Shown here: positions 1 to 14,700 of the stretch, piece by piece
Numbering within the stretch: the first letter of the stretch is position 1
Layout of the letters: the number at the start of each line of letters is the position of its first letter
Notes under the pieces: generated by a model
What the model was told of the DNA's origin: nothing
Seen by the model: only the letters and a program-made list of their open reading frames with translations
Databases searched by the model: none
Translations under genes and position numbers: made by a program
Assembly (NCBI GenBank): GCA_001515955.1
Contig: LOES01000010.1
Coordinates: 1-14,822, forward strand
DNA: 14,822 bases
Reading direction: 5' to 3'
Origin: Clostridia bacterium BRH_c25
GTDB lineage: Bacteria; Bacillota_A; Clostridia; Lutisporales; Lutisporaceae

Positions 1-702
1 TTTACTATCGTACTGATCATTTCGTTTCAAGCTAAAGGAGTAGATAAGACTTTATTGCAAAGCAGTGATAGTGTCAAAGTTGTAAATGATTCATATAAGA
101 TAGAATTTATACCACTAAAAAGTGTAAAAGATTCTGCTTTGATTTTCTATCCAGGCGGATTTGTTGACCCCAAAGCATATGTACCTATGGCAAGAAAAAT
201 TACAGACAACGGGTATAAGGTAATAATTGTAAAGCTACCATTAAGAATAGCATTTTCAAATTCCCAAAAACAAGAATTGTTTTTCCGAAGCAAGGAGTTA
301 ATTCAAAATGATGATGAAATAAATCATTGGGTTATGGCAGGACATTCACGTGGAGGTGCATTAGCAGCAGAATTTGTTAAGGACGAAAGTAAACTTGTAG
401 ATAGCTTAATATTAATCGGTACAACTCATCCAAAAGAGTTTGACCTTTCTGATTTAAAAATTGATGTTACCAAAGTTTTTGCAACAAATGACGGGTTAGC
501 AAGTGAAAAGGAGGTTAAGGAATACGCAAAAAATTTACCACCTCATACTAATTGGGTAAAGATTGAAGGTGGAAACCATTCACAGTTTGGTTATTACAGC
601 TTTCAGATAGGTGATAAAAAAGCGACTATTGGTAGGGATACACAACAAACTATATTAGTGGATTTGATAATACAAGTATTGCAGAGAGTAATATCTGAAT
701 AA
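1..702 (+). CDS. Alpha/beta hydrolase, membrane-anchored or secreted (5' end outside window)
   Basis: The reading frame is open to the window edge, so the gene is partial. The first visible residues (FTIVLIISFQAKG) look like the end of a hydrophobic signal or anchor segment, which suggests an extracytoplasmic enzyme; the internal TTG at 55 is therefore probably not the start. The body resembles the dienelactone-hydrolase-like alpha/beta hydrolases (Abhydrolase_5 type). An oxyanion-side FYPGGFVDP segment is followed by the nucleophile elbow AGHSRGGA (Ser at visible residue 116). A later Asp in FATNDGLAS (about 164) and His in EGGNHSQFGYY (about 193) complete a plausible Ser-Asp-His triad. The C-terminus ends normally with a helix. 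The substrate cannot be told. It lies just upstream of the IS21 element, which is on the opposite strand, so no operon partner is visible on this side. Confidence 0.8.
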   Translation, partial: FTIVLIISFQAKGVDKTLLQSSDSVKVVNDSYKIEFIPLKSVKDSALIFYPGGFVDPKAYVPMARKITDNGYKVIIVKLPLRIAFSNSQKQELFFRSKELIQNDDEINHWVMAGHSRGGALAAEFVKDESKLVDSLILIGTTHPKEFDLSDLKIDVTKVFATNDGLASEKEVKEYAKNLPPHTNWVKIEGGNHSQFGYYSFQIGDKKATIGRDTQQTILVDLIIQVLQRVISE

Positions 703-711
703 TATTAGGTC

Positions 712-750
712 GCATTTTTTATAAAACGTGTAGAAAAGGTTATAAAATGC
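712..750. other. Imperfect A/T-rich hairpin after the hydrolase gene
   Basis: The arms GCATTTTTTATAA and TTATAAAATGC pair apart from two extra T residues, starting 10 bp after the hydrolase stop. There is no run of T after the second arm, so it is only a weak candidate terminator. Confidence 0.25.
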
Positions 751-772
751 AGTTGTAAGCAGTCAAGTAAAA

Positions 773-790
773 TGTACATTTTTTCGCCAC
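773..790 (+). repeat. IS21 left terminal inverted repeat
   Basis: TGTACATTTTTTCGCCAC at the istB end matches the right end TGTGCAATTTTCCGCCAA read on the minus strand at most positions. A second TGTACA copy occurs a few bases further inside, at about 795. Confidence 0.6.
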
Positions 791-806
791 AAAGTGTACA
801 CATCTA

Positions 807-1547
807 TTAGCCCTGTGTAATAGATTTTCTGTGTTCCAGTCTGTAGCTGTTGCCGGTCATATTCAGAATCTTACAATGATGGATAAGCCGGTCTAAAATA
901 GCGGTGGTTATTGTGGCATCTCCCATAAAGTCTGTCCACTCGTCAAACCCTTTATTGGATGTAATTATCAAAGATGCCCTTTCAGACATTGAGGACACAA
1001 ATCCAAAGAATAGGTTAGCTTCTGCATTGCTGAGCGGCATAAATCCTACCTCGTCTATGATAACCATTGCCGCCTTGTTAATTATCTTCAGCCAGCGCCG
1101 GCTGGCAGCAGAGATCTCGGAAGTCTTAAGTATTTTTATCAGTTCATCCAGGGTATTAAATGCAACAGCATATTCCATATCCAATGCTTTTACTGCAAGT
1201 GACAGGGCCAAATGAGTTTTCCCAATGCCTGGAGGCCCTAAAAAACATACGTTATATGCCTGCTCAACCCATGTCATGTCAGATAACCTCAGCATCTGCT
1301 CCTTTGAGATACTGCGCTGAAAACCGAAATCAAACCTGTCCAAAGTTTTTTCTGCCGGTAACTTGGCGCGCTTCCTGCGTATAATGTTCTGCTTTTCTGT
1401 CCGGAGGCTCTGCTGTTCATTAAGAAATATTTCTATGCTTTCGAGTGGTGTAAGGTTGTTCTTTTCCTTGTATAGTGTCTCGAAGTCCATAGGCGACAAC
1501 CTAAGCGCACTTATTAATGTACTGATATGCTCGATCCTTTTATTCAA
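807..1547 (-). CDS. istB: IS21-family helper ATPase IstB
   Basis: IstB is the AAA+ ATPase that assists the IstA transposase in target selection and strand transfer. At 246 aa it has the usual family length. Visible motifs are Walker [10 protein letters not shown] (residues 104-112), Walker B MVIIDE (161-166), a sensor-like IITSNK (194-199) and an arginine-finger-like AILDRLIHH (216-224). The start is a TTG whose bases overlap the istA stop in the sequence TTGA. A TAGGTGG ribosome binding site lies six bases upstream, so it is translationally coupled to istA. The gene appears intact, but with istA destroyed it could act only with an IstA supplied from another copy. Confidence 0.93.
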
Positions 1548-2336
1548 TTCATACCACCTACTTTCGCATATACCTCGAGGGATCTTTTCTGAGTGGTGAT
1601 ATGGTATTTGTTATCGCTTACAGGTATTTCTTTAAAGGCTATTTCTTTCTTTGGCTTCTCATTGTACTCAAGGAAGTCCCTTACATATGTGGTACTAAAA
1701 AGCTCGCTGGTATTACAGAAGTCTATTGCCCTGAGTACTTTATCCAGGCCATACTTATCATACATTGTTTGTAGGAGCTTGAACTGATCACGGGCATACC
1801 TTGATTTTTCAGTACGTATGGTCTGCAGGAACTCTGTTGCTTTATACTGCAGCAGTTCATCAATTGCAGCCTGTGCTGCATCCAGTGGTTCCTTCCTGTT
1901 GCGTGAATGACTTGTATTCTTAATCAGCAGGCCTCTGCCGGTACTGATAGGATGATCACATATTGGATCTCCAAAGCTTGTCTCTATGAATAGTCTGTTG
2001 TCTTTAACTTCTATTCGAACTTCCTTTTGGCTGTTGTATGTACCAAGGGGTACGGAATATCTATTACTGTCATAAACAATGGTATTATCTTTCCTTACAG
2101 TCCTGTATATGTAGGCAGTGCTGTTTATTTCAATATCAAGCAATGGACGCAGATGTTCACATTCTTCCTTAAAAACTTCAGCAGGGATCTTCTTGGTTGT
2201 ACCGTGCACCTTAGCATTGGCAGTCCTGTCCAGCCAGTCAAGGCATGATCTGTTGAGGACATCTATATCAACATAAAGCCTGTTTTCCAAGAAGTTGTAC
2301 TTAACATATTTTACAACATTCTCTACCTTGCCTTTG
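1544..2336 (-). pseudogene. istA: IstA transposase, C-terminal fragment (cut off by the RIT insertion)
   Basis: This is the 3' part of the IS21 transposase gene. It resumes with KGKVENVVKYVKYNFLEN, the conserved stretch whose glutamate is the likely third acidic residue of the DDE site. It continues through the beta-rich target-binding region (VYDSNRYSVPLG) and a C-terminal helical part, ending four bases into istB. The reading frame runs further upstream (to 2359), but those residues (ICEASHI) are encoded by the palindrome at the RIT junction and are not genuine IstA. The matching 5' fragment lies at 5829-6263 on the far side of the RIT element. Confidence 0.9.
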
Positions 2337-2362
2337 ATATGTGAAGCTTCACATATCAAAGG
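2331..2362. repeat. Perfect 32-bp palindrome at the left RIT junction
   Basis: CCTTTGATATGTGAAG is followed immediately by its exact reverse complement; the centre is a HindIII-like AAGCTT. The outer CCTTTG belongs to istA, and the inner CAAAGG belongs to the RIT end. The right junction has only one CCTTTG and no palindrome. The 20 bp between the two hexamers are thus extra DNA present on one side only. Confidence 0.9.
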
Positions 2363-2390
2363 GAATGTAAAGTTAATGAAAATGTAAAGT
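2357..2390 (+). repeat. RIT left terminal inverted repeat (34 bp, perfect)
   Basis: It begins CAAAGGGAATGTAAAG and ends ATGAAAATGTAAAGT, and is identical to the reverse complement of 5799-5832. It holds two direct copies of the box AATGTAAAGT, likely recombinase binding sites. Confidence 0.92.
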
Positions 2391-2425
2391 CAGAACATGA
2401 AATCCTTATGGCATAAGAGGCTTTT

Positions 2426-2446
2426 ACTGATTCACTTCACATTTTC
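2426..2446 (+). repeat. RIT left inner repeat, inverted box
   Basis: ACTGATTCACTTCACATTTTC lies 36 bp inside the terminal repeat and carries the AATGTAAAG-type box in the opposite orientation. It matches the right inner repeat (5743-5763, opposite strand) at 19 of 21 positions. Confidence 0.8.
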
Positions 2447-2502
2447 GTACTCCGATAGTTAAATTAGGCACTTAGCCAAAAAACTATGGGAGGGATCTGA
2501 AA

Positions 2503-3765
2503 ATGGATTCAATAATAAACCAAAAATCATTGGATACCATGGCGGATGAGCTGATTTCCTTTCTCAAGCAGATAGGTTTTCATCCAAATCATATTCAAAG
2601 GTACCGCCAGTATATCAAAAGAATCAGACAGTTTATGAACGAGCAAGCTTTAGCCAATTTCACAAGTAATGAGTGCGACATATTTGTTAGGCAAATTATT
2701 GGAAATGGCGAATACAAAGATTTAAGTTATTGTGATAAAGAAGCAATTCGATGTGCAAATATTTTGATTGAATATCAACTGACTGGAATGATTTCATATA
2801 GGATCAAGCAAAAGCAAGAATTGCTTCATGGCTCAATTGGAAATGATATTCAATCATATCTTGATTACCGGAAATCTGTAGGGATTTCATCTGAAACACT
2901 GTATAACACTCGGACCTATCTTGGGCGTTTTCAAAAATATCTTGATTCAGTCAGGCGAAGTACATTCGGTGATATGACACAGCAAGATATTCTTGGCTTC
3001 ATTAAAAGCATCAGTTATTCCACAAAGGCTACCATACATTGTACACTCTGTGCTTTAAGAGGACTTCTGAGATACTTACATAGTGAAAGAATCCTTGAAA
3101 TAGACTGGTCGTATTTGGTTCCAAAGGATAGCTACAGAAAAGAAGCAAAGCTTCCAACAACCTATACGAAGGATGAAGTCGAGCGTATGCTTAATGCAGT
3201 TGATCGCGGAAACCCAAAAGGGAAACGCGATTACGCCATGATGCTACTAGCGGCCAGACTTGGTCTACGTGCATCGGATATCTGCGGTTTGACCTTTGAA
3301 AACCTGCTTTGGTCACAGAATCTCATTGTGCTAATTCAGGAAAAGACAAAAAAACGGATCGAACTACCACTGCTCACTGAAGTCGGAAATGCTATCATTG
3401 ACTATCTTAAATATGGGCGCAAAGCGTCGGATTTGCCGTATATGTTCCTCCATGCCAATCATGGTTATCGTCGGCTTCAAGAGCCCACACTTCACAGTAT
3501 TGTCTGTTTCTACATGCGGCTTGCAGGAATAGAAAATGTAGATGATAAAAAACATGGCCCCCATGCATTACGCCATAGTCTGGCTGGATTCCTGCTTGAG
3601 AAGAAAACACCACTTCCTGTAATTTCGGAAGTGCTTGGTCATTCAAACACAGAGTCAACAAAAACATACTTAAGGACCGATATGGAATCGTTGCGTCAAT
3701 GCGCCCTCCAAGTCCCCTCTGTCAGCAACGGCTACTATCAGAAAGGGGGTCTCTGCAATGAATGA
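2503..3765 (+). CDS. ritA: RIT tyrosine recombinase A
   Basis: First recombinase of the trio, 420 aa. The N-terminal half (about 1-205) is helical and contains a SAM-like core-binding domain (about 111-200). The catalytic domain follows with Arg256 in AARLGLRASDICGL, Lys281 in the beta-hairpin IQEKTKKR, His354-xx-Arg357 in HALRHS, His380 in EVLGHSN, and nucleophile Tyr389 in STKTYLRT. All residues needed for cleavage and rejoining are present. It forms a DNA 3'-phosphotyrosine intermediate during integration or excision. The ATG is preceded by GGGAGGG nine bases upstream. Its stop overlaps the start of the next gene by 8 bp. RIT proteins are thought to act together; the division of labour is unknown. 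Confidence 0.93.
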   Translation: MDSIINQKSLDTMADELISFLKQIGFHPNHIQRYRQYIKRIRQFMNEQALANFTSNECDIFVRQIIGNGEYKDLSYCDKEAIRCANILIEYQLTGMISYRIKQKQELLHGSIGNDIQSYLDYRKSVGISSETLYNTRTYLGRFQKYLDSVRRSTFGDMTQQDILGFIKSISYSTKATIHCTLCALRGLLRYLHSERILEIDWSYLVPKDSYRKEAKLPTTYTKDEVERMLNAVDRGNPKGKRDYAMMLLAARLGLRASDICGLTFENLLWSQNLIVLIQEKTKKRIELPLLTEVGNAIIDYLKYGRKASDLPYMFLHANHGYRRLQEPTLHSIVCFYMRLAGIENVDDKKHGPHALRHSLAGFLLEKKTPLPVISEVLGHSNTESTKTYLRTDMESLRQCALQVPSVSNGYYQKGGLCNE

Positions 3766-4717
3766 TTTAAGAAGCAGTATGGCACCCCTCATTAAATCTT
3801 ATGTGGATTTTAAACGCAGTCTTGGATACAAGTTCAAATACATATATGTTTTTATCAATTTCGACAGGTTCCTTTGTGATCAGTACTATGAGTCCCTAGG
3901 GCTCAGTGAAGAAATATTAAGCAAATGGAGTCAACGCCGTCCCAATGAAACGGATGTTACCTGGTATAAAAGGGTGGATGACATACGAAACTTTTCCATC
4001 TATCTGAACGGAATCGGTTATCCATCCTATGTCCCACGGCTACCAAGAAGATATATCACAAATTTTAAACCATATATCTTTACAGATGAAGAACTCCAGC
4101 GTTTTTTCGAAGCATGCGACAGCATGGAATATAACACCAACTACCAGTCGCTTTATCATGTATGTCCTGCTCTGTTCAGGCTTTTATTCGGGTGTGGTCT
4201 GCGCGTAAATGAAGCTCTTTCACTAAAATGTGAAGATATCAACCTGACAGATGGATTCATTATCATTCATGAAACGAAAAACGGAGAAGAGCGCCAGTTA
4301 CCACTTTCAGAATCATTAATAAATGTATTGGTACAATACCGTAACTACTGCCGCAGCAATGCCAATGGTCAGGATTACTTCTTTGTAAAACGTAATGGCG
4401 AAAGATGCTCATCTGACACTATATATAGAAAGTTTAGAAAAATACTGTATTACGCCAAAATATCACATGGCGGAAAGGGACATGGCCCACGGGTGCATGA
4501 TTTCAGGCATTCGTTCAGTGTCCACTCACTGGCAAATATGGCTGATCAGGGGTTGGATTTGTATTACTGCCTTCCATTGTTATCAAAATACCTTGGACAT
4601 AAGTCTCTTGCGGCTACAGATGGTTATGTCAGGTTAACAGCAGAGATGTACCCAAAGCTAATAAATGCTATGAACCAAATATGTGCTTTTGTCTTTCCGG
4701 AGGTGAAGCAGCCATGA
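3758..4717 (+). CDS. ritB: RIT tyrosine recombinase B
   Basis: Second recombinase, 319 aa, with a short N-terminal arm and core-binding region (1-105) and a catalytic domain after it. Catalytic residues are visible as Arg149 in LLFGCGLRVNEALSL, Lys174 in HETKNGEER, His247-xx-Arg250 in VHDFRHS, His281 in KYLGHKS, and Tyr290 in ATDGYVR. The ATG lies inside the end of ritA, behind an AGAAAGGGGGT ribosome binding site, and its TGA overlaps the ritC ATG. Coupled translation of the trio is therefore expected, with the three products in similar amounts. The insertion between the HxxR motif and the second His (MADQGLDLYYCLPLLSKYLGH) is longer than in XerC/D-type proteins. Confidence 0.93.
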   Translation: MNDLRSSMAPLIKSYVDFKRSLGYKFKYIYVFINFDRFLCDQYYESLGLSEEILSKWSQRRPNETDVTWYKRVDDIRNFSIYLNGIGYPSYVPRLPRRYITNFKPYIFTDEELQRFFEACDSMEYNTNYQSLYHVCPALFRLLFGCGLRVNEALSLKCEDINLTDGFIIIHETKNGEERQLPLSESLINVLVQYRNYCRSNANGQDYFFVKRNGERCSSDTIYRKFRKILYYAKISHGGKGHGPRVHDFRHSFSVHSLANMADQGLDLYYCLPLLSKYLGHKSLAATDGYVRLTAEMYPKLINAMNQICAFVFPEVKQP

Positions 4718-5733
4718 AACCGACGGATTTCGCCTATTATCTGACTAACTTCTTTACAAAGTACCTTCCCATTGAGTGTGGTGTAAGTCCAAACACCGTA
4801 TCGTCTTACCGGGACACATTCCTGCTTTTCTTTGCATTTGCCAGAGACGAGAAAGGCAAGGTCATCGAAAGGCTGCAACTGAAAGACATCAATAAAGAAC
4901 TCATTACAGACTTCCTTAACTGGATTGAAACCGGCAGAAAATGTTCAATACCAACGAGGAATGTGCGGTTAACTGCTATACACTCGTTTTTTCAATACTT
5001 GCAGTACGAATATCCGGATTTCCTGATTGAATGGCAGAAAATACTCTCAATACCTGTAAAAAAGGGTGAACGCGGAACTCTGAACTACACGTCTCTCGAG
5101 GGCATAAAGCTTCTTCTTGAAATGCCGGATCAACATACAAAATCAGGAAGAAGGGATCTGGCACTTTTATCATTGATGTATGATACAGGAGCAAGAGTTC
5201 AGGAAATCGCAGATCTCACTCCTTCAATGGTGCGTCTTTCTGAACCAAGCACCATCAAGCTTATTGGTAAAGGCAATAAAGCCCGTATTGTTCCGCTAAT
5301 GGAAAAGCAGGTTGACATTCTTAATTGTTACATGAACGAGAATAAACTGAATGCTCCATATGCTAATCAGTATCCACTGTTTTTTAACAACAGAAAAGAA
5401 AAACTCACACGTGCAGGCATTGGCTATATACTTGATAAATACGTAAAAATGGCGAGAATCAAGGATGCATCACTAATCCCGCCCAAATTTAGCTGCCACT
5501 GCATGAGGCACAGTAAAGCAATGCATATGCTCCAATCAGGAGTTAATATTGTATATATCCGGGACATGCTTGGGCACGTATCCATACAAACCACAGAAAT
5601 CTACGCAAGAGCTGATTCCCGCAAAAAACGTGAGGCAATCGAACAGGCTTATACAGATGTGACTCCTGATACAAAACCACAGTGGGAAGGTAACCAAGAT
5701 CTTATTGAATGGCTGAAGTCATTTAATAAGTAA
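4714..5733 (+). CDS. ritC: RIT tyrosine recombinase C
   Basis: Third recombinase, 339 aa from the ATG at 4714. That start is chosen because it overlaps the ritB stop as ATGA and has GGAGGTG ten bases upstream; an in-frame ATG at 4681 lies within ritB and lacks such a site. It is the most XerD-like of the three. A SAM-like N-terminal domain (5-115) is followed by Arg161 in YDTGARVQEIADL, Lys186 in IGKGNKARIVPL, His262-xx-Arg265 in CHCMRHSKA, His288 in DMLGHVS and Tyr297 in TTEIYARA. The C-terminal tail (about 300-339) is charged and could mediate contacts between recombinase protomers. The gene ends 10 bp before the right inner repeat of the element. Confidence 0.93.
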   Translation: MKPTDFAYYLTNFFTKYLPIECGVSPNTVSSYRDTFLLFFAFARDEKGKVIERLQLKDINKELITDFLNWIETGRKCSIPTRNVRLTAIHSFFQYLQYEYPDFLIEWQKILSIPVKKGERGTLNYTSLEGIKLLLEMPDQHTKSGRRDLALLSLMYDTGARVQEIADLTPSMVRLSEPSTIKLIGKGNKARIVPLMEKQVDILNCYMNENKLNAPYANQYPLFFNNRKEKLTRAGIGYILDKYVKMARIKDASLIPPKFSCHCMRHSKAMHMLQSGVNIVYIRDMLGHVSIQTTEIYARADSRKKREAIEQAYTDVTPDTKPQWEGNQDLIEWLKSFNK

Positions 5734-5742
5734 CAGTAATAT

Positions 5743-5763
5743 GAAAATGTAAAGCGAATCAGT
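5743..5763 (-). repeat. RIT right inner repeat, inverted box
   Basis: GAAAATGTAAAGCGAATCAGT is the counterpart of 2426-2446 on the opposite strand, with 19 of 21 positions matching. It lies 35 bp inside the right terminal repeat. Confidence 0.8.
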
Positions 5764-5798
5764 ATAATTTTGTTGTATTCCATTGGTTTTACGATTTC

Positions 5799-5832
5799 AC
5801 TTTACATTTTCATTAACTTTACATTCCCTTTG
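5799..5832 (-). repeat. RIT right terminal inverted repeat (34 bp, perfect)
   Basis: Exact reverse complement of 2357-2390. The outermost CCTTTG (5827-5832) is shared with the istA target, so element and host sequence cannot be separated within that hexamer. Confidence 0.92.
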
Positions 5833-6263
5833 CTTTCAGGGTCACTCCTGCGGCATAGATAGATACTGAGCTTGCATTCCTGCCGGAGCTTTTCAAACTC
5901 ATATGTATAGATAATATCTCCATAGTTCTCTGAGACACTTACTATATGATCCTGATCAAAGACCAGCTCCAATGGCATACCGCCAATGTATCTGAAACAG
6001 TCCTGACAGCAGCGAACCAAGTCGACGGCAGTAAAAGGATTTTCTTGAAACTGTACATATCATCTTACGATTGTTTCCTCATATTCAGAAAGGAGTTTTG
6101 TTCGGTTGACTGTAAAGGTATTATCCTCAAATTCATCAGCAGTCATGTCCCAGTAGCGCTTTACGGTATTTCTATGTATGCCAAGCTGCCTGGACACATT
6201 TGTCTGCTTAAACCCCTTCTCCTTAAGTTGCTGTATTTTAGTGTACATCTCGTAACCCTTCAT
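5829..6263 (-). pseudogene. istA: IstA transposase, N-terminal fragment with internal deletion
   Basis: The start is ATG 6263, with GGAGG seven bases upstream. Residues 1-35 form the N-terminal helix-turn-helix (QQLKEKGFKQTNVSRQLGIHRNTVKRYW). After ...SEYEETIVR a TGA (6060-6062) interrupts the frame. The same frame then continues as YVQFQENPFTAVDLVRCCQD...LVFDQD, sequence that in full-length IstA lies roughly 100 or more residues later. The middle, including the first catalytic Asp, is therefore deleted. LVFDQD probably carries the second catalytic Asp. Sequence stays IstA-like through CRRSDPESKG, where the RIT element begins; beyond that point the frame reads into the RIT repeat and stops at about 5802. 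Confidence 0.88.
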
Positions 6264-6330
6264 CTTTCCGCCTCCAAAACTGTTTCTTAGAGCAATTCTA
6301 ACAAACATATTCTGAAAACTGTATAGTTTC

Positions 6331-6349
6331 GTTGGCGGAAAATTGCACA
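6331..6349 (-). repeat. IS21 right terminal inverted repeat
   Basis: Read on the minus strand this is TGTGCAATTTTCCGCCAAC, the partner of the left end at 773-790. It lies about 70 bp upstream of the istA start. Confidence 0.6.
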
Positions 6350-6358
6350 CTTTATTTT

Positions 6359-6459
6359 ACCATTCACAGTAACAGATAAAATAGTAAAAGCAAGTATATA
6401 TCAATATACTAAATGAAAATAATTTGCGTACTTAACCATTTACAGTAACATGCTATACT
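6359..6459 (+). promoter_or_regulatory. Putative promoter and operator region of the SDR operon
   Basis: ACCATTCACAGTAACA (6359-6374) and ACCATTTACAGTAACA (6435-6450) form a direct repeat with one mismatch and a 76-bp period. The second copy is followed directly by TGCTATACT (6451-6459), an extended -10 element; the -35 at the right distance (CTTAAC) is poor. A repressor or activator site overlapping the promoter spacer is a reasonable inference. The first copy begins 10 bp outside the IS21 end and is followed by the AT-rich GATAAAATA. Confidence 0.45.
6393..6410. promoter_or_regulatory. Dyad symmetry, possible operator
   Basis: AGTATAT, a 4-bp spacer ATCA, and ATATACT form a perfect 7-bp inverted repeat between the two direct repeats. 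Its size suits a dimeric winged-helix regulator, but no regulator gene is in the window. Confidence 0.35.
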
Positions 6460-6503
6460 AAAGTTGTCAACAAAAATTCGAAAGTTCGAAAGGATGTATT
6501 CTC

Positions 6504-6993
6504 ATGAAAACAATACTTATAACAGGTGGAACAGATGGAATGGGAAAAGGTGTTGCTATGCACTTCTTAAAAAAAGGCGACCGAGTAATTGTTGTCGGTA
6601 GTTCAACAGCAAAAGGCGACATTTTCTATAATGAGGCTAGACAATTGGGAGCAGAGGAAAGGGCATTTTTTCTTCAAGCAAATTTGAGTTTGGTAAAAGA
6701 AAATCAGCGTATTGTCGAAGAAGTAAAAAGCCGGTTCCATTCTTTGGATATGCTAGTGTTATGTGTAGCCTCTCAAAAGTACAAAAAAACATATTCTGAA
6801 ACACAGGAGGGGTTTGAATTTACTTTTGGGCTATATTATAGAATTGTTAGAAAATCCACCTAAAACTTCTTTATCTGCTTTTAAACAACGAAAAGAAGTA
6901 AGCCTTGCAATGGAAACTTTTGATAAAGAAAATGCTCAAAAGCTTTTTAATATAACCGTTCAATTGATGAGCGGATATTCGAATAAGCAATAG
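6504..6993 (+). pseudogene. Short-chain dehydrogenase/reductase, internally deleted
   Basis: The N-terminal part starts at ATG 6504 with AAAGGA nine bases upstream. It has the Rossmann glycine motif TGGTDGMGKG (residues 7-16) and the LDMLVLCVASQ strand in place of the usual NNAG. The frame ends at a TAA at 6861 after FTFGLYYRIVRKST. From 6829 a different frame reads GYIIELLENPPKTSLSAFKQRKEVSLAME and on to a TAG at 6991; this looks like the natural C-terminal tail of the same SDR type. The middle, with the Ser-Tyr-Lys catalytic centre, is missing and the frame is shifted at the join, so the gene is non-functional. About 165 codons remain. The next SDR gene starts 14 bp later. Confidence 0.8.
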
Positions 6994-7007
6994 GAAGGGA
7001 AAAAGTT

Positions 7008-7967
7008 ATGAAAGGCATAAAGAAAAAAGATAGTTGGACGGTTTCCAATATTCCCTCACAGAGAGGTCGTTTAATCATTGTTACAGGAGGTACAGGGGGA
7101 TTAGGCTATGAAACTGCTTTGGCTCTAGCTCGTGCAGGCGCAGAAGTTATTTTGGCAGGACGTAATAGAAGTAAAGGTGAGGCGGCACTCAAAAAAATTC
7201 GGTCAAGTGTTATTTCAGCAAACATTCGTTTTGAGGAGCTTGATCTTGCTGATCTCGCATCCGTTGAAGCTTTCGCAAAACGAATGCACAGTAAGTATCA
7301 AAGGCTGGATGTTCTTATAAATAATGCTGCAGTGATGCTGATTCCACACCGAAAAGTTACGAAGGATGGCTTCGAATTGCAATTTGGCACAAACTACCTT
7401 GGACATTTTGCGTTGACGGCTTATCTTACGCCACTTTTGCGAAAGGGACATAACCCACGTGTGGTCAATGTCTGTGCCATGGCTGCCCATACTGGTGTGA
7501 TTAATTTCGATGATTTGCAGTCAGAACACCACTATAAGCCCATGGAAGTATATAGGCAATCAAAGCTGTCAAACTTGGTTTTTTCACTTGAGCTTCATCG
7601 TCGTAGTGAAGCTGAGAAGTGGGGAGTTAAGAGCATTGCTGTTCATCCGGGTTTGTGTCAAACAGATTTAGCTGCCAATGGAATAGGGGCAAATAATATG
7701 CTCATAAAAGTTTATCGCCTGCTTGGACCAATTTTCTTTCAGTCTGCTGCACAAGGGGCTTTGCCAACACTTTTTGCGGCAACATCCCCAGAGGCTGTAA
7801 GCGGACAGTATTATGGACCAGATGGTTTTAATGGAATATGGGGGTTCCCCACATCTGCCAGAATATCACCTTGGGCAAAAGATGTGAATGCTGCGAAGCG
7901 ATTATGGAAAACCTCAAAACAATTGACGAATGTAGATTTTGACATGATAACGTCAATGCAGATTTAA
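7008..7967 (+). CDS. SDR-family oxidoreductase (retinol-dehydrogenase-like) lacking the catalytic Ser
   Basis: A 319-aa member of the SDR subgroup related to retinol dehydrogenases and WWOX-like proteins, normally NADP(H)-dependent and acting on carbonyl or alcohol groups. A short N-terminal extension precedes the Rossmann fold. TGGTGGLG is at residues 26-33, AGRN at 50-53 (Arg fits NADP preference), LDLADL at 78-83, NNAAV at 105-109, and YRQSK at 182-186 gives the catalytic Tyr and Lys. The motif usually reading VNVSS reads VNVCA (153-157). Ala157 sits 25 residues before Tyr182, where the catalytic Ser is expected by comparison with RDH12. Activity may be altered or lost. The HPG motif (213-215) is present. 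The ATG has AGGAAGGGA upstream. It is probably cotranscribed with the following gene, 59 bp downstream. Confidence 0.9.
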   Translation: MKGIKKKDSWTVSNIPSQRGRLIIVTGGTGGLGYETALALARAGAEVILAGRNRSKGEAALKKIRSSVISANIRFEELDLADLASVEAFAKRMHSKYQRLDVLINNAAVMLIPHRKVTKDGFELQFGTNYLGHFALTAYLTPLLRKGHNPRVVNVCAMAAHTGVINFDDLQSEHHYKPMEVYRQSKLSNLVFSLELHRRSEAEKWGVKSIAVHPGLCQTDLAANGIGANNMLIKVYRLLGPIFFQSAAQGALPTLFAATSPEAVSGQYYGPDGFNGIWGFPTSARISPWAKDVNAAKRLWKTSKQLTNVDFDMITSMQI

Positions 7968-8026
7968 GTTTCATATGTTGTAAAGCATTAATTCTAGCAA
8001 ATATTTTAGAATAGGAGAGAATAATC

Positions 8027-8431
8027 ATGAATTTAGAAGAAATGAAAGCAGTGATTCCAATTCACACAAATGGCTATTTTGCAACTGTCGACAGCGACAA
8101 AGCTGACATCAGAGGATGGCAGTTTCAATTGATTGAGGACGGCAAAATATATTTTTGCACATCCAACAAGAAAGCTGTCTACCGTCAGTTACAGAACAAT
8201 CCTAATTGTGCTTTTACCTGTAATGCAGGTGGCTATGCTTTTCGCATCAGAGGCAAAGCTATTATGGTAACTGATAAAGAAGTAACAGCGAAGATACACG
8301 CATCAATTGACGCGCAGGTTGCTGCCGTTTATCCCACACCGGACGCCAACGGATTTACCGTATTTTATCTGGAGCACGGAGAAGTGAAATACTCAAGTAA
8401 CTTCATAGCTTTTGACAGCTTTACCTTTTAA
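8027..8431 (+). CDS. Pyridoxamine 5'-phosphate oxidase-fold flavoprotein
   Basis: A 134-aa protein of the small split-barrel flavin-binding family, cytoplasmic with no signal peptide. The typical N-terminal strand pair is seen in GYFATVDSDKADIRGWQFQLIEDGKIYFCTSNKKAVYRQL (about residues 17-56), followed by NCAFTCN and the RIRGKAIMV strand (74-82). Proteins of this sort bind FMN, F420 or haem and are often annotated only as PPOX-class; most are not the true PdxH enzyme. The start ATG has AGGAGA nine bases upstream. It lies 59 bp after the SDR and on the same strand, so the pair probably form one redox operon. The substrate is unknown. Confidence 0.85.
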   Translation: MNLEEMKAVIPIHTNGYFATVDSDKADIRGWQFQLIEDGKIYFCTSNKKAVYRQLQNNPNCAFTCNAGGYAFRIRGKAIMVTDKEVTAKIHASIDAQVAAVYPTPDANGFTVFYLEHGEVKYSSNFIAFDSFTF

Positions 8432-8679
8432 AAGGGAAAATACACCAAAAAGAAGACGAAGGTTAAGAAGGTCACTATTCCTATAACTTCATTGTCTCGA
8501 CTCGCTCCACGACAATATTTCTGAACTTAACTAGTTTTTGGAACATACTCACCCTTTTATGGATAATCATGCAGGTCTATTACTCCGAAGAAGCCATGGT
8601 GTTGATACTGGAAAACATAAAATAAAGGTTGCGTTTTACCTGTATATACGGGCACTATAATAGAGAAATTTGAGTATGA
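8432..8679. other. Intergenic stretch with no supportable gene
   Basis: I see no convincing gene. A 33-codon frame (8559-8660, starting MDNHAGLLLRRSHGV) is open but has no clear ribosome binding site and resembles nothing I recognise. ATTGTC and GACAAT at about 8491-8516 form a short dyad. A TATAAT at 8656-8661 has only poor -35 candidates (TTTACC with a 15-bp spacer). Confidence 0.4.
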
Positions 8680-8722
8680 CTGCCAATATGGGAGAAAATC
8701 TCTCTGGTTGGCAGATTTTTTT
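8680..8722 (+). terminator. Rho-independent terminator
   Basis: CTGCCAA pairs with TTGGCAG, an inner GAGA/TCTC stem extends the hairpin, and the second arm is followed by ATTTTTTT. It is oriented for plus-strand transcripts and would end the SDR-PPOX operon about 250 bp after its last gene. Confidence 0.8.
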
Positions 8723-8723
8723 G

Positions 8724-8781
8724 TTATATTTGACTTTTATGCACACTATATTTTTATTATAAGCATAAAAGTCAAATATAA
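8724..8781. repeat. Long hairpin: perfect 19-bp inverted repeat
   Basis: The arm TTATATTTGACTTTTATGC (8724-8742) and its exact complement (8763-8781) flank a 20-bp AT-rich loop. It sits immediately after the terminator and before the RAYT relic. It is not followed by a T run, so it is not an obvious terminator; it may be a relic of a small non-autonomous element. Confidence 0.85.
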
Positions 8782-8788
8782 TAAAATG

Positions 8789-8815
8789 GGAACCTTAGGA
8801 ACCTTAGGAACCTTA
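8789..8815 (+). repeat. Three tandem copies of GGAACCTTA
   Basis: Exact 9-bp unit repeated three times, running directly into the GGTGCCAGGTGC palindrome-like box. It is too short and lacks spacers, so it is not a CRISPR. Confidence 0.9.
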
Positions 8816-8816
8816 G

Positions 8817-8827
8817 GTGCCAGGTGC
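8817..8827 (+). repeat. REP-like box upstream of RAYT relic 1
   Basis: GTGCCAGGTGC is a variant of the GTGCCAGGCAC palindrome found at 9651, 10319 and 11128. The following bases (..GTTATTAAGTTATTGA) resemble those after the box at 10319 (..GTTAGCTGGTTATTGA), so the two RAYT modules share their upstream end. Confidence 0.65.
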
Positions 8828-8903
8828 AAAAGTTATTAAGTTATTGATATGAATTAGCCCTTCTGATAGCATATAAGTAAGAATGTTATCAGGAGGTTTT
8901 TTT

Positions 8904-9635
8904 ATTGCTAGAGCATGGAGAGAAGAATACAAAGGGGGGATATATCATGTAATAGCCAAGGGGAATAACAAGGAATACATATTTAAGGAAAGTGTTGACA
9001 AGGGCTACTTTATTAAGCAGCTAAAAGAATACAGCAAGATCATGGGATATACAGTATATGGATATGTGCTGATGGGCAATCATTATCATTTGATCATTCA
9101 AACAAAGGATAAAAAGCTTCAGGAGATCATGCATCAGATAAACAATAAGTACAGTAAGTATTTTAACGGCAAATATAATAGAGTGGGGCACGTATTTCAA
9201 GGCAGATACAAGGCAGTACTGGTGCAGGATGAGAGATATATATTAAAACTGTTAAGATATATTCATCAAAATCCGGTAAGAGCAGGCATGTGTAACAGGG
9301 TATCGGAATATAAGTGGAGCAGCGATATTTTTTATAGAAAGTATATTAACAGTTTTGTTGATATACTTGTTATATTGGAAATACTGGACAAGAACGAAAC
9401 ACAGGCGGTAAAAAAATATATGGAGTTTATGGCAGTGGAAGAGCAGGATAATTATAGCAAACCAAATGCAATAGGAGAAGAAGCATATTGTATAATGTGT
9501 GAAAGCAGAAAACGGGTAAAGCAAAGGAAGGGTTTGGATGAGATACTGATTGAAACAGGAGTATCACTGGATGACTATCAAAAAATAAAATCGGCTTCAA
9601 GAAAAAGAGCGCTGACAGAATACAAGCTTAAATAA
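8904..9635 (+). pseudogene. REP-associated tyrosine transposase (RAYT, IS200-like Y1 fold), decayed copy 1
   Basis: The protein aligns with the second RAYT in this window and has the HUH nuclease motif MGNHYHLII, a tyrosine-bearing INNKYSKYFN helix and the VGHVFQGRYKAVLVQDE stretch typical of the family. Two defects are visible. The start homologous to ATG 10414 of copy 2 is ATT here (8904), placed seven bases after AGGAGG; the only in-frame ATG (8883) lies upstream of that site. The C-terminus stops after YKLK, whereas copy 2 continues about 37 more residues. The nuclease core itself is complete, so weak residual activity cannot be excluded. A GTGCCAGGCAC box follows 15 bp after the stop. 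Confidence 0.8.
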
Positions 9636-9650
9636 GTACCGATCCCGATC

Positions 9651-9661
9651 GTGCCAGGCAC
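9651..9661. repeat. REP-like palindrome after RAYT relic 1
   Basis: GTGCCAGGCAC, an 11-bp odd palindrome, lies 15 bp after the RAYT stop. It is the typical recognition-type sequence associated with Firmicute RAYTs. Confidence 0.75.
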
Positions 9662-9793
9662 CGTAAAGTACCTGTCCCTGCAGGGTGTATCACATTATGT
9701 TGATTATTAGTATTATATATTGGAATGAAAATCTATAGATTTCAATTGTTCGTAATAGAAATCAGTGTTAATAATCATGAGAGGAGGGAGACT

Positions 9794-10318
9794 ATGATAT
9801 ATTATAGAAGGTTTGCAGACATGGTTGGAACTTCAACAAATCCGGCAAGAACGATTAGGGCTGCAAAAGACAGTGATTATAGAAGGCTTGCAGACATGGT
9901 TGGAACTTCAACAGTAATTATGTTTGGGCTTATGTATTTAAATACTTACGAGGAAGATCATTTATACTTTAGCGAGAATCGAGTGTATATGGCCCTTATA
10001 ATGGGAGCAGCAATGGCTATGATTATGCTTTCCAACATGCAGGATATGTACACTGACATAAGAATGAATTCCAACATTTTCTTGTTTAGTGCCGTTGTAT
10101 TTGCACTTGCCCTTTGGCTCTTACGCAGCCAAGCGCTCATCGATGATGTTTCCTGGATGAAATCAATGATACCACATCATTCAATTGCCATTCTTACCAG
10201 TGAGCGTGCTAATCTAACAGACCCACGTACTCAGGACCTTGCAAATAGGATTATAGAATCTCAGCGCGAGGAAATTGAAGAGATGAAGGTACTGATTGAG
10301 GATATTGAAATGTCTTAA
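9794..10318 (+). CDS. DUF305 membrane protein with duplicated N-terminus
   Basis: A 174-aa protein from ATG 9794, chosen because AGGAGGG lies five bases upstream; an in-frame ATG at 9725 has no such site. The predicted layout is three hydrophobic segments (about residues 36-52, 63-80, 94-111) followed by a DUF305 region (121-172) with the WMKSMIPHHSIAI motif (His128, His129), whose His and Met residues suggest metal binding. The family is often found near copper-handling genes, and a multicopper oxidase lies 1.4 kb downstream on the other strand; a shared role is only a guess. Residues 4-15 (YRRFADMVGTST) recur as 29-40 (YRRLADMVGTST) owing to a 75-bp in-frame duplication. The stop codon abuts a REP-like palindrome. 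The gene sits between two RAYT relics. Confidence 0.85.
   Translation: MIYYRRFADMVGTSTNPARTIRAAKDSDYRRLADMVGTSTVIMFGLMYLNTYEEDHLYFSENRVYMALIMGAAMAMIMLSNMQDMYTDIRMNSNIFLFSAVVFALALWLLRSQALIDDVSWMKSMIPHHSIAILTSERANLTDPRTQDLANRIIESQREEIEEMKVLIEDIEMS
9801..9913 (+). repeat. In-gene direct repeat, 38 bp with 75-bp period
   Basis: 9801-9838 and 9876-9913 differ at one position (GGTTTG versus GGCTTG). The period of 75 bp equals 25 codons, so the frame is kept. The second copy joins the membrane segment as expected for the family, which suggests that the first copy and the 37-bp spacer are the added material. Confidence 0.92.
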
Positions 10319-10348
10319 GTGCCAGGCACGACTGTTAGCTGGTTATTG
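10319..10348 (+). repeat. Left inverted repeat of RAYT module 2 (includes REP-like palindrome)
   Basis: It begins GTGCCAGGCACGACTGTTAG directly at the DUF305 stop. It matches the reverse complement of 11109-11138 at 27 of 30 positions, so the second RAYT lies within a defined pair of ends. Confidence 0.85.
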
Positions 10349-10413
10349 AGAAGGATAAGGTCTTCTGATAAAATGGAAATAATATGTAAAATATAATCAG
10401 GAGGCTTTTTCTT

Positions 10414-11114
10414 ATGGGAAGACCATGGAGGGAAGAATATCATGGTGGTATTTATCATGTCATTGCCAGAGGTAATAATAAAGAGTACATTTGATTATGC
10501 ATCAGATAAACAACAATTACAGCAAATATTTTAATGGCAAGTATAAGCGGGTAGGCCATGTTTTTCAAGGACGGTATAAGGCTATTTTGGTACAAGATGA
10601 GCGGTATCTCAAAGGTTTGCTAAGGTATGTTTATCAGAACCCGGTACAAGCCCGTCTTTGTAAAGAAGTTGGTGAATATAAGTGGAGTAGTGATGTTTTT
10701 TACCGAAAAGGCATAAAAGGCTTTGTTGATGTAGATATTGTACTGAATATGTTAGATATGGACAGAGCCGAAGCAGTCAAGCAATATATTGGTTTTATGA
10801 GAGAAAAAGAAGAACAGGATTTTGAAAAACTGAAAGTGATAGGGGATGACGCCTATCAGGTCATGTGCAAGAGCAGAAATAAGATAAATGAGAGAAAACC
10901 GCTGGATAGTATTTTGAGGGAAACTGGCATCAGTGAAGAAGATTACCAGTTAATCAAGAGAGGTTCAAGAAAAAGGGGGTTAACAGTCTACAAGCTGGCT
11001 TATGCAAGGGCTGCCCTGATATTGAAATATACTTTTAAGGAGATTGGACGGAACATTAATGCGGCTGAAAGCTCTGTTAAAGACTTGGTGTACAAATATG
11101 ATGACAGGCAATAA
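10414..11114 (+). pseudogene. REP-associated tyrosine transposase (RAYT), decayed copy 2 with internal deletion
   Basis: The start ATG 10414 follows AGGAGG and encodes MGRPWREEYHGGIYHVIARG, the normal RAYT N-terminus. After NNKEYI the frame hits TGA (10492-10494). Homology resumes at once in another frame as IMHQINNNYSKYFNGKYKRVGHVFQGRYK and then runs to a full C-terminus ending YKYDDRQ. Comparison with copy 1 shows that about 48 codons, including the HUH motif, are missing. This copy is therefore dead, but it keeps the C-terminal region that copy 1 has lost. Its stop codon lies inside the right inverted repeat of the module. Confidence 0.85.
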
Positions 11115-11138
11115 CCGACTAACCGTCGTGCCTGGCAC
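11109..11138 (-). repeat. Right inverted repeat of RAYT module 2
   Basis: Partner of 10319-10348, ending with GTGCCTGGCAC at 11128-11138. It overlaps the last codons of the RAYT relic. Confidence 0.85.
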
Positions 11139-11595
11139 TCATTTTTATCTACTCAAGGCATACAGAATGTTGCGTGAAGATTGAGCGGCTGAAAGGTTGA
11201 TGAATAGAGGGTTATGGGCAATTTAAACTTTTGTAATTGTAAGGAGACCCTTGAGGATATAAAAAAGATGACATAGAGATCAAATACATTTTTAAGGTGT
11301 TAATGCTACTCTAAAGTTGCGATTCCCATCAATATATTACGACATTTAGATAAAGATAAGTTAGTGTTTCTGGAACGTTAAAAGGGGGCTAACAGAAGCC
11401 GAAAAGAACTGATTGCGGGAAAAGGAACGGGTAACAGCTCTATAAAAAAAGAATTTCTTCTTCTGTGTTTTGGCTTCAAAGCAAAAAAAATATATGCAAT
11501 AATTTAGAATGACAGATACGGTAGAGAACTTCACGAGCAAAAGACAGCTTAAGATGATCATATGCTGTTAGGTTTATTAAAGTGCGCTTAAAATC
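11139..11595. other. Intergenic stretch with no supportable gene
   Basis: Frames in this stretch are broken by frequent stops and none resembles a family I recognise. Short open pieces such as NCKETLEDIKKMT near 11240 could be scraps of a lost gene. No tRNA, repeat array or clear promoter was seen. Confidence 0.4.
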
Positions 11596-11646
11596 AAAAA
11601 GGCTGTCAAAAGTTATAGTGATAAGCAGCTTTTCTCAGCCTTTTTT
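11596..11646. terminator. Bidirectional rho-independent terminator
   Basis: AAAAAGGCTG pairs with CAGCCTTTTT around a 30-base loop, giving a T run on both strands. It lies about 110 bp beyond the multicopper oxidase stop and probably ends that minus-strand transcript. Confidence 0.7.
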
Positions 11647-11755
11647 AGTTATAGGATAGAAAGAGAGTATCACTAACTCTTAAAAAGTAGTTTTGTGACA
11701 CCCCCTTCTTATTGCTTAGCAAATCATCAAGGCAGATGACTTGAAAATTAGGTAG

Positions 11756-14700
11756 TTATAGGTTCACGTTTGCTGTGTTCGAGTAAGCTGACAACCCCGC
11801 CTCATTTACGGCCGCTACCCTATAGTTATAGCTATTGCCAAGCGTGACAGTACTATCAGTGTAGCTCACATTACCTGTTAATAATCTTGGTCCAACTGTA
11901 GCAAGTGTGAAATAGGCTCCGCCATTATCAGACCTTTCGATTACAAAACCTGTCTCGTTATTGGCATTGTCTCTCCAAGTCAGACGAACCCGCGGCGCAA
12001 CTAGCTGTGCTGCAGTTAAATTGGTTGGAGCCGCTGGCGGCAGAACTTGATTTTGACCTACCTTCACTAAGTTTGAAGGATCGGACTCGACTGTTATAGT
12101 TGGGAAGCCGGGAGTGGCAGTATCACCCACGGTGCTGGATGCAGTTACCCGGTAGTAATAAATGTTGTTTGTAAACCCGATTGGGTCGGTATACGAAGTT
12201 GAACCGGACGGCAGCTTCACAAGGGAAGTCCAGGGACCAGCAGCATTTACTGCTCTGTATACAGTAAAGCCGGTTTCATTTATTGAATTGTCCATCCAGG
12301 TCAATACTACACGTTTATAGAATAAGAAACTGACAACATTGGCAACCAGGTTGGAAGGTGCTTTCGGCGGAACGGCAAATGCCATTGAGTGCATCATATC
12401 CATCTCTTCGTGAGCGAGAATATGACAGTGATACACATACTCCCAACCGTAGTTTACATAATGGTTAGTAACCTGGCTGACCGGTTCTCCCAACGGGTCA
12501 AACCATTCCCCGGCTGGTGGCGGCGGTGGTAGAGCAGCACCCTCGGGCATTGTCGGATCGATAAGACGGACACTGTTCGGCACCTCGAAGGGCACCTGTG
12601 AATGTGTAGGAATATTTGGCCTCAACGCTATGATAGTATGCTCGAGTGGGTTTACCCTAAAGGTTTCCTTCCAGCCCAGTTCATTGGGATCAGGAGGTAT
12701 CATGGCACCGTCCCAGGCAACACGGTTGATGAGCTGCGCGGAAAACAGGTGGGTGTGAATGGTATGGGTATCCACACCGTTGTGAGTAATTTTCCAAATC
12801 TGAGTTCCGTCCTTAAGAGAGCCGATGGGAGTCGTATGAAGATTCGCTGTGCCTCTGACAATCTCAACAGGCGGACTAGCATAGGGATAGACTACAAATT
12901 GGGCGTTGCTAGAACTGGAAACTGGGAATTCAAGCCCAAGCATTCCGCTCATCCGCCCATACCCTGTGTCGTAAACTTCACCCATTTCATCCTGTAAAGC
13001 TTTAGGCTCTATCTTTAGCGCAACAGAGGGCTGAAGGGCTCCATTTGCGTCTATAGGCTGAAAGGTCTTGGAGAACTCATGAAGTTGCACGTAAGCACTA
13101 GCAGCATCTGCAGGAAAATTCGTAACGTAGTAGGCGGAGTTGTAAGCAGCCTGGGGGATAATTATCGGATCCTGGGATGCTTCAAATACTCCTTTTTTCG
13201 TACTTGTCTTAGCAAACACTGATTCTAACTTAGTTATGTCATATGCCGGGGCGGGAGTGGAAGCGGCTACTCTTATCTGCATTATTGTGCGGATGTTGGG
13301 CCCATAGCCGGGTTGCGTGGTCGGCGCACCACCCTCATCAGTCAGATCAGGATTACCCGTGTAGTAGTCGTAGCGCGGATCGGCAGCTGGAAATGCTGCG
13401 GGAGCATCGTTGTAAAGTATGATAGTCTTACCGGCATACTGGGAAAAGTCAACGATGACATCTGACCGCTCTGCGGTTCCCAGCAGCAGCGAGTGCTGAT
13501 CGACATTGCCGGCATTAAAGGTAGTAGCATTCAGGTTCCAGGTAATCGGCTGGCTGGGTATTACCACAGGTGCAGGCAGGAAACTGCTTTCAGTACCGAT
13601 TTGAATCCAGTCCGGCCCCTTTAAGGCAGGATCAGGTACGCCGCTCGGCCAGTCTGCAGGGATACCGGGCGTTCCGCAAGCAGATACCATCTTGACTTCT
13701 GTAGCATATCCTGTATCAGGTGAAATATAACTATCGGGATCAGCTACATACATCTGCAGGTTAAAGAAGCGGTCGTCGGCAGCGTTCAGTATGCGGAACC
13801 GGTATGCCTTTGGATCCACTACCAGGTAGGGATAGGCAGTGCCGTTTACAATAGGGGTATCCATAAAAGCCTCGCCCGGCATTGAGGGGAAAGGCATAGC
13901 GGGCATCATTGGAGGCCGTTCATCCGGATTCTGAGGGTCGTAGTAAGGATTGGAAATCGGACCGTGTTGTATATCTGTTGTAGGCGGCCAGAACCATGGG
14001 CCATACATCCAGCGGCCAAACGGGTTTACTCCGTCGGGAGCCCAGGGGTTCTGGGCAGGGCTATAGACATGAGGATACCAAAGGTCGCCTGTATATGGTG
14101 TGCCAGGTGTTGTTCCCCATGCCCAAGTAGGGTCGGTGCTTAGAATGGTGTTGGCATCAACAAAAGTTTTGTCTTGGATAACAAGGGGAATGCCAAGCCC
14201 GGGAAGGATTTTTTCCAGTCCGGGATTTACTCCGGTTTCGTTGGTGCCGTTGATAAGATCTTGTTCCACCCGGTCTGTCAGCAGATAAGCTGCGGCTTCT
14301 CCGACATAAACGTTAAGACGGGTGATGCCGTATGTGTGGTCATGGTAAAACATTAACCTTGCACTCTGTGCATTAGTATAGTACAGGGTCATTACTCCAT
14401 CCCGGGGGTTGTCTACCTCATCCATATCAGGAACATTAACTACACTGACACCCTGGGGATAAGGAGTATCTTCTCCTGCGGGGGTAATCCACTGATGAGG
14501 CGTCCCATCACTTATCCACACGGAATTATTGCCATGGAGGTGGATGGTTGACCGGTTTTGCATATAATTCATAGGCATTGCATCATGCCCCATTGGTCCG
14601 TGTCCTGCGCCCATAACGGTTGTATCCACGGGAATGAAGAGGTCGCCTCCGGCTCTGGTAGGAAGAAGATTGTAGAACTTGATACGAACCGGTATATCAC

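Follow-up and report, generated by a model that had tools for sequence, protein, structure and literature searches.

The window analysed here, a stretch of 14,822 nucleotides from Clostridia bacterium BRH_c25 (contig LOES01000010.1, positions 1 to 14,822), contains a recombinase-in-trio (RIT) element located within the istA gene of an IS21 insertion sequence, on the strand opposite to it. The element is an additional member of the RIT family and shares with its relatives an end anatomy in which a palindrome, built from two half-sites, typically stands beside one end only, at a fixed spacing of 6 bp. The three 6-bp spacers of such a locus resemble one another, the palindrome lies on the C-terminal side of the host-gene motifs found at the junctions, and at four of seven loci compared with uninterrupted relatives the native hexamer of the target is found at the end which has no palindrome. 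The best model for these features, and one that we consider probable, is that of a site-specific transposon with 6-bp cores, which would move as a circle with a double-core palindrome and recombine by strand-biased exchange.

End anatomy of the window element and its relatives

The core of the element occupies positions 2363-5826 (3464 bp). Its terminal inverted repeats lie at 2363-2402, with half-sites M1 (2363-2372) and M2 (2380-2389) separated by 7 bp, and at 5787-5826, with half-sites M2 (5800-5809) and M1 (5817-5826). The outermost 27 of 27 nucleotides are identical between the two, in agreement with the perfect ends claimed by the earlier, sequence-only reading of this DNA. Further inwards, a left-end repeat (2422-2449) is an inverted copy (86%) of a right-end repeat (5740-5767). 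Beside the left end, upstream of ritA, positions 2331-2362 form a perfect 32-bp palindrome, CCTTTG-ATATGTGAAG|CTTCACATAT-CAAAGG, which in undivided form reads CCTTTG-ATATGTGAAGCTTCACATAT-CAAAGG and is the only perfect even palindrome of at least 18 bp in the window.

For naming, the palindrome of a locus is drawn to the right, so that the hexamer of the plain end is Na, the one within the palindrome (read in the inverted sense) Nb, and the one beyond it Nc. The window palindrome then consists of an outer spacer Nc (CCTTTG, 2331-2336, + strand), a 20-bp perfect palindrome ATATGTGAAG|CTTCACATAT at 2337-2356 made of two abutting half-sites (M.M'), and an inner spacer Nb (CAAAGG, 2357-2362, + strand), the reverse complement of the outer one. 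Na is the target hexamer CCTTTG at 5827-5832 (+ strand; CAAAGG in the sense of istA). The hexamer is thus present three times, once inverted, because the left end is a 32-bp palindrome and no plain repeat; the sequence-only reading had a single shared CCTTTG and limits of 2337-5828, which are off by a few bases and overlook the palindrome. By the rule derived below from relatives, the inserted stretch would be 2331-5826 (3496 bp), with Nc brought in with the element and the hexamer at 5827-5832 native.

Related trios were taken from a scan of genome contigs (at least 80 loci) and of viral contigs (13 loci), and their ends were placed by script from half-sites like TTATGnAAAG, two per end and 7 bp apart. 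The 93 sources comprised the window and 92 loci, L093 being excluded. After removal of 8 with no ends placed, 20 with poorly defined ends, 14 with less than 32 bp on a side and 1 masked locus, the count covered 50 loci whose ends are well defined and which have 32 bp or more of flank on each side. A 20-bp palindrome (at least 7 of 10 pairs) lies exactly 6 bp outside the first half-site at 45 of these 100 ends, and the same test at 24 shifted places gave 0-2 ends each. The palindrome is one-sided in 37 of the 50 loci, present at both ends in 4 and at neither in 9. One-sided palindromes stand at the left (ritA) end in 20 cases and at the right (ritC) end in 17, and the direction of ritABC relative to the palindrome is divided 27:24 (51 loci, the masked one included). 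Like that of the window, the palindromes of relatives are M.M', two half-sites head to head, some with 1-3 mismatched pairs, and therefore the inner junction reads M'-6 bp-M, an arrangement which would correspond to a tyrosine-recombinase core with a 6-bp overlap.

Five plasmid stretches were collected as well, and the trios of three were examined. In the RIT of Cupriavidus pHG1, one end is accompanied by a perfect palindrome of 32 bp, TAGCGC-AAATGTGCTGCAGCACATTT-GCGCTA, and the opposite end by TAGCGC; the Bacteroides finegoldii copy has a comparable 32-nt palindrome upstream of its trio, but no terminal repeat was resolved there. The third is taken up below.

A more distant recombinase trio, with an inverted-repeat module, is present in seven copies (L176-L182) in genome G017. 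The module lies at one end, left or right, in six copies and at both ends in L176. Hexamers beside it are identical in 7/7 copies, and the plain end varies in 2/6 (by eye). The end design may therefore reach beyond the RITs treated here.

Spacer hexamers, host genes and empty sites

The three hexamers were compared in 34 loci, without L071 (masked) and L057 and L092 (duplicates), which gives 204 positions. Agreement is 163 for Na-Nc, 148 for Na-Nb and 158 for Nb-Nc, whereas shuffled pairings averaged 62-63 and reached at most 88-95 in 2000 trials. The result is similar when all 37 loci are kept. Positions 5 and 6 of the hexamer agree in 94-100% and position 4 in 50-59%.

At seven loci the native hexamer was sought by comparison with uninterrupted relatives. 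For L147, in a parA gene, all four intact sites (from three of 397 genomes and one viral contig) have TGTGGG, identical to Na. For L055, also in parA, all ten intact sites (7/397 genomes) are nearer to Na (4-6/6) than to Nc (2-3/6). Eight alignable loci of 11 were found for L032 and all are nearer to Na; in the closest of these empty sites, L213, the flanks agree in 40/40 and 24/24 positions and the hexamer is identical to Na. Four alignable loci of seven for L059, in a further parA gene, match Na in 5/6 positions versus 1/6 for Nc. The 3/11 and 3/7 loci set aside by eye for L032 and L059 agree with the plain-end flank in 4-9 of 24 positions, versus at least 12 in those kept. Each of these four decided loci has its native hexamer beside the plain end, ritABC being forward in two and reversed in two, and therefore the spacers on the palindrome side were carried in.

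The position of the palindrome is also fixed with respect to the host gene. Nineteen loci, the window included, have a junction in a KG[KRNH][VI]E motif or a P-loop (by eye), and all 19 have their palindrome on the side of the C-terminus, with ritABC in sense orientation in ten and antisense in nine. Three others (L012, L037, L039) show a motif by eye, but the script read another frame and they were left uncounted. At the DNA level, GG|NAAR is found in 18/51 loci.

Host-gene pieces were scanned with Pfam in 27 of 41 cases, and 20 gave a family. The genes interrupted include IstA-like genes (recognised by motif only), IstB and ParA at their P-loops, IS4-type and PDDEXK transposases, RadC, a resolvase, reverse transcriptase (below the curated cut-off), an HK97-gp10-like phage protein, topoisomerase, ResIII, YpsA, an amidoligase and a Fic-domain gene. 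The relatives in istA-like, istB, transposase, parA, radC, resolvase and reverse-transcriptase genes lend strong support to the earlier suggestion that other mobile DNA can be a target of the element. RITs have been reported in radC and IS66 tnpA genes (PMC2864759) and in radC and a Tn6049-type transposase gene (PMC3414803); nesting in mobile DNA is already known, and the addition here is its breadth and the codon-level pattern. In one ParA subgroup (L059, L153-L155, L158) the native P-loop is apparently GVAKT and not GVGKT, and is still a RIT target.

In the window, istA is read from the - strand and is divided into an N-terminal part (5827-6350) and a C-terminal part from KVENVV onward (1547-2330); it is followed by istB (807-1547, - strand), the IS21 helper ATPase gene (NF038214, 230.9 bits, cut-off 200). 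Put next to each other, the two flanks translate as CRRSDPESKG|KVENVVK, so the in-frame rejoining at SKG/KVENVV claimed earlier holds at the junction itself. It does not extend to the gene as a whole, as the N-terminal part lacks about 99 codons. In comparison with a 513-aa relative (L124), residues about 77-175 are missing and a stop is present there, near position 6060; with the stop and this loss in the N-half, istA was broken independently of the RIT, and the possibility that it was intact apart from the insertion is ruled out. The missing stretch includes QVDFGEKW, which we take to be the stretch with the first catalytic Asp. No intact istA with a DDE triad is present, given the deletion and the RIT interruption, and both pieces score under the cut-off for IS21 transposases.

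Both halves are collinear with L124, with neither gap nor overlap at the junction, as expected of one gene and not of two different IS copies. Nor do related IS21 elements always carry the insertion. The C-terminal part was searched in 82 genomes and found at 23 places in 12 of them; 22 of these places have an uninterrupted site, KG|K or KG|R, the remaining one (L135) being unaligned there, and therefore the insertion is not obligatory in relatives. The hexamer at the 22 sites is CAAAGG in 14, CAAGGG in 4, TAAAGG in 2, and GAAGGG and TAAGGG in 1 each. The IS21 copy itself is not delimited, because the sole candidate for its outer ends is an inverted match of 10 nt only (9/10, 791-800 / 6344-6353).

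A multicopy genome offers a view of several insertions side by side. Lachnospiraceae genome G018 has six strong RIT places of this type, and the five copies compared differ by 0-2 positions per 3430 bp; it is from such copies in relatives that transposition is inferred. They lie in four parA contexts, represented by L055 and L058 (alike), L059, L147 and L060. In L055 the set (Na, Nb, Nc) is (AGTCGG, GACGGG, AACTGG). L059 and L147 occupy two other parA genes; they share AGTCGG as Nb and GACGGG as Nc, and their native Na hexamers differ. Such a pattern fits what would be expected if the element had left an L055-like site with the native hexamer of that site and had then used its other core. The carried-in hexamer Nc of L055, AACTGG, adjoins one of the two N-halves which flank L060.

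Proposed mechanism and alternatives

In the proposed model, the RIT would have inserted at Lys-Gly|Lys codons of the IS21 istA gene by recombination at cores of the form M'-N6-M, with a 6-bp overlap and M a half-site like TTATGnAAAG. The moving form would probably be circular, with its ends joined as M1'-N6-M.M'-N6-M1, a joint with two cores and a shared central palindrome. Either core could recombine with the target, and ritABC would consequently come to lie in either orientation while the palindrome keeps to a fixed side of the target. The hexamer of the target would remain beside the plain end, and the two on either side of the palindrome would have come along from earlier sites. Exchange may be strand-biased, because the hexamer rule implies one preferred strand, as in the strand-biased circularizing integrative (SE) elements. 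The circular form, a copy-out step, the strand bias and an assignment of the three recombinases to their sites are what we infer. A more general proposal, that RITs move by a mechanism of their own with a symmetric double attachment site, two 6-bp cores of which either is usable, the last two target hexamers carried along and a preference for Gly-Lys codons, is one for which we hold the chances to be even.

Several observations weigh against the proposed model. Nine of the 50 loci have no palindrome. Among these, L052, L060 and L066 are flanked on both sides by an N-half of a host gene (by eye), L040 has a palindrome of 6/10 pairs, L007 looks misplaced, and L046, L049, L065 and L067 are unexplained. 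Neither terminal repeat nor palindrome was found in the third plasmid copy, that of Cupriavidus taiwanensis (L225). The native hexamer was undecided at three of the seven loci (L047, L054, L063), and among the distant relatives of L063 it is nearer to Nc (5/6) than to Na (3/6) in 5/11 loci. The three hexamers of the window element are the same, and hence the native-hexamer rule cannot be tested at this locus. An earlier form of the rule placed the native hexamer of reversed elements beside the palindrome; it was refuted by the empty sites of L055. As regards the 19 motif loci, five were represented by a single flank, that beside the palindrome, and L055, L057 and L058 are near-duplicates; L030, with L|KGG on the opposite strand, has its palindrome on the N-terminal side and has neither of the counted motifs. 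Finally, a joined circular form with both M1' and M1 was found in none of the related loci then collected.

Palindromes at both ends are seen in L024, L025, L053 and L068, and in L024 the same host-gene half recurs, inverted, on both sides. These four loci, together with L052, L060 and L066, are rearranged copies and would fit recombination between copies, or assembly.

Four other explanations were weighed. The palindrome could be a fixed part of one end, upstream of ritA, in an ordinary excise-and-integrate element. This is how it stands in the window, and an inverted repeat with an overlapping palindromic sequence flanking ritA and ritC is described in PMC3414803; with 17 palindromes at the ritC end versus 20 at the ritA end among the 37 one-sided loci, we regard the explanation as very improbable. 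Hardly any more credit, and if anything slightly less, can be given to a palindrome which pre-exists in the target and is sought by RITs. It does abut target sequence, but the empty sites join their flanks by one hexamer and are free of palindromes (22/23 for istA, L213, ten for L055 and four for L147). It is also improbable, to a somewhat lesser degree, that the element is an inactive relic, which arrived passively along with the IS21 copy or stands in a locus assembled from parts of two IS copies. The decay of istA speaks for this, and against it stand the collinear istA halves, the perfect ends and ORFs (open reading frames), and the near-identical copies of related elements at different sites.

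The alternative that deserves most attention, while still unlikely, retains the same anatomy but has a single-stranded M.M' hairpin as the attachment site, in the manner of integron attC, or a resolved hairpin end. Hairpins serve as substrates of tyrosine recombinases in integrons and of telomere resolvases, M.M' is a perfect or near-perfect palindrome, and the hexamer rule implies a strand bias. A single-stranded circle has moreover been considered for SE elements, but the circles of these are mainly double-stranded and nicked (PMC10214605), and some of the palindromes in RIT relatives have 1-3 mismatched pairs.

Returning to the transposon with double-core ends, the end anatomy and the hexamer rule together define a substrate (the M1'-N6-M.M'-N6-M1 joint and the target hexamer) precisely enough for stepwise tests, and would explain why insertions recur in the conserved motifs that other mobile elements carry. 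The anatomy also provides a way to delimit RIT ends in annotation. If the model is true, the carried hexamers record earlier landing sites and transposition pedigrees could be read from genomes; likewise, a preference for Gly-Lys codons would explain the repeated hits on KGK[VI]E of transposases and on the P-loop GxGK.

Recombinase genes, neighbouring genes and known systems

Between its ends the window element has three overlapping tyrosine-recombinase ORFs on the + strand and no fourth gene, the other ORFs listed there overlapping the trio. These are ritA (2503-3765, 420 aa), ritB (3758-4717, 319 aa), which overlaps ritA by 8 bp, and ritC (4714-5733, 339 aa from the ATG at 4714), which shares a 4-bp ATGA overlap with ritB. 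Each of the three products matches Phage_integrase (PF00589) in a profile search. Alignments of RitA and RitC to XerD and of RitB to a XerC-like protein, read by eye, cover the catalytic R, K, HxxR, H and Y, as the sequence-only reading had held for all three, and the overlapping trio with inverted ends inside istA, on the opposite strand, likewise bears out its description of a complete RIT element. RitA has a SAM-like N-domain match above cut-off at residues 117-195 and a second one below cut-off at residues 17-65; two core-binding domains have been described in RitA (PMC8138268). The closest relatives of RitB reach 93% identity, and a search of phage records at the DNA level gave no match. 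From the intact ORFs and perfect ends, it is plausible that the window copy is active.

Elsewhere in the window, an IS200-like (Y1_Tnp) transposase gene is present at 8883-9635 and a shorter similar ORF, without a Pfam match, at 10491-11114. Palindromes like GTGCCAGGCAC lie near 8818, 9651, 10319 and 11128, by these IS200-like ORFs, and resemble REP-associated transposase units. A short, apparently truncated short-chain dehydrogenase ORF (6504-6863) is directly upstream of a longer one (7008-7967), and a long ORF (11756-14822, - strand), similar to multicopper oxidases and with a weak match to fibronectin type III, is open at the end of the window.

With respect to known systems, the host resembles the IS21 family in its istB gene, which scores above the NCBIfam cut-off, and in its collinear istA relatives, and differs from it in that istA is RIT-interrupted and separately deleted, with pieces below the transposase cut-off. 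TnpC of Tn554 is not known to be a tyrosine recombinase, unlike the third protein of the window element, which is one. The Tn554 family (gene set TnpA, TnpB and TnpC, with a 6-bp footprint) and the GInts are otherwise similar in having several tyrosine recombinases which act together (PMC10214605), but GInts have four genes (GinA-D; PMC10214605) and no fourth gene lies between the window ends.

SE elements have 6-bp spacers, with the native 6 bp kept at one end and those of the circle at the other, and insertion of one into an IS gene, insJ of IS3, has been reported (PMC10214605). The RITs resemble them in their 6-bp spacers and may do so in a strand-biased transfer, the native hexamer being at one end in 4/7 loci with three undecided; this would be a likeness of working and not of membership. 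Unlike SE elements, which encode IntA, Tfp, IntB and Srap (PMC10214605), the window element has three recombinase genes only. The word palindrome is absent from the text of the SE paper (PMC10214605), and the same paper gives the target specificity, empty site and movement of RITs as untested. In the available text of the RIT and SE literature searched, no account was found of rules for the spacers, the placement of the palindrome or the native hexamer; Ricker et al. (2013) may describe part of this.

The closest comparison is with the RITs of Cupriavidus metallidurans CH34 and of pHG1, which have three overlapping tyrosine recombinase genes, a length of about 3.5 kb, inverted repeats, an overlapping palindrome and a location within radC or transposase genes (PMC3414803, PMC2864759), the inverted repeat and palindrome being said to "do not fit well" with usual sites (PMC3414803). 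The window element has in common with them the trio with short overlaps, a length of about 3.5 kb, terminal inverted repeats and a palindrome at the end, and differs in that the gene it occupies is an IS21 istA.

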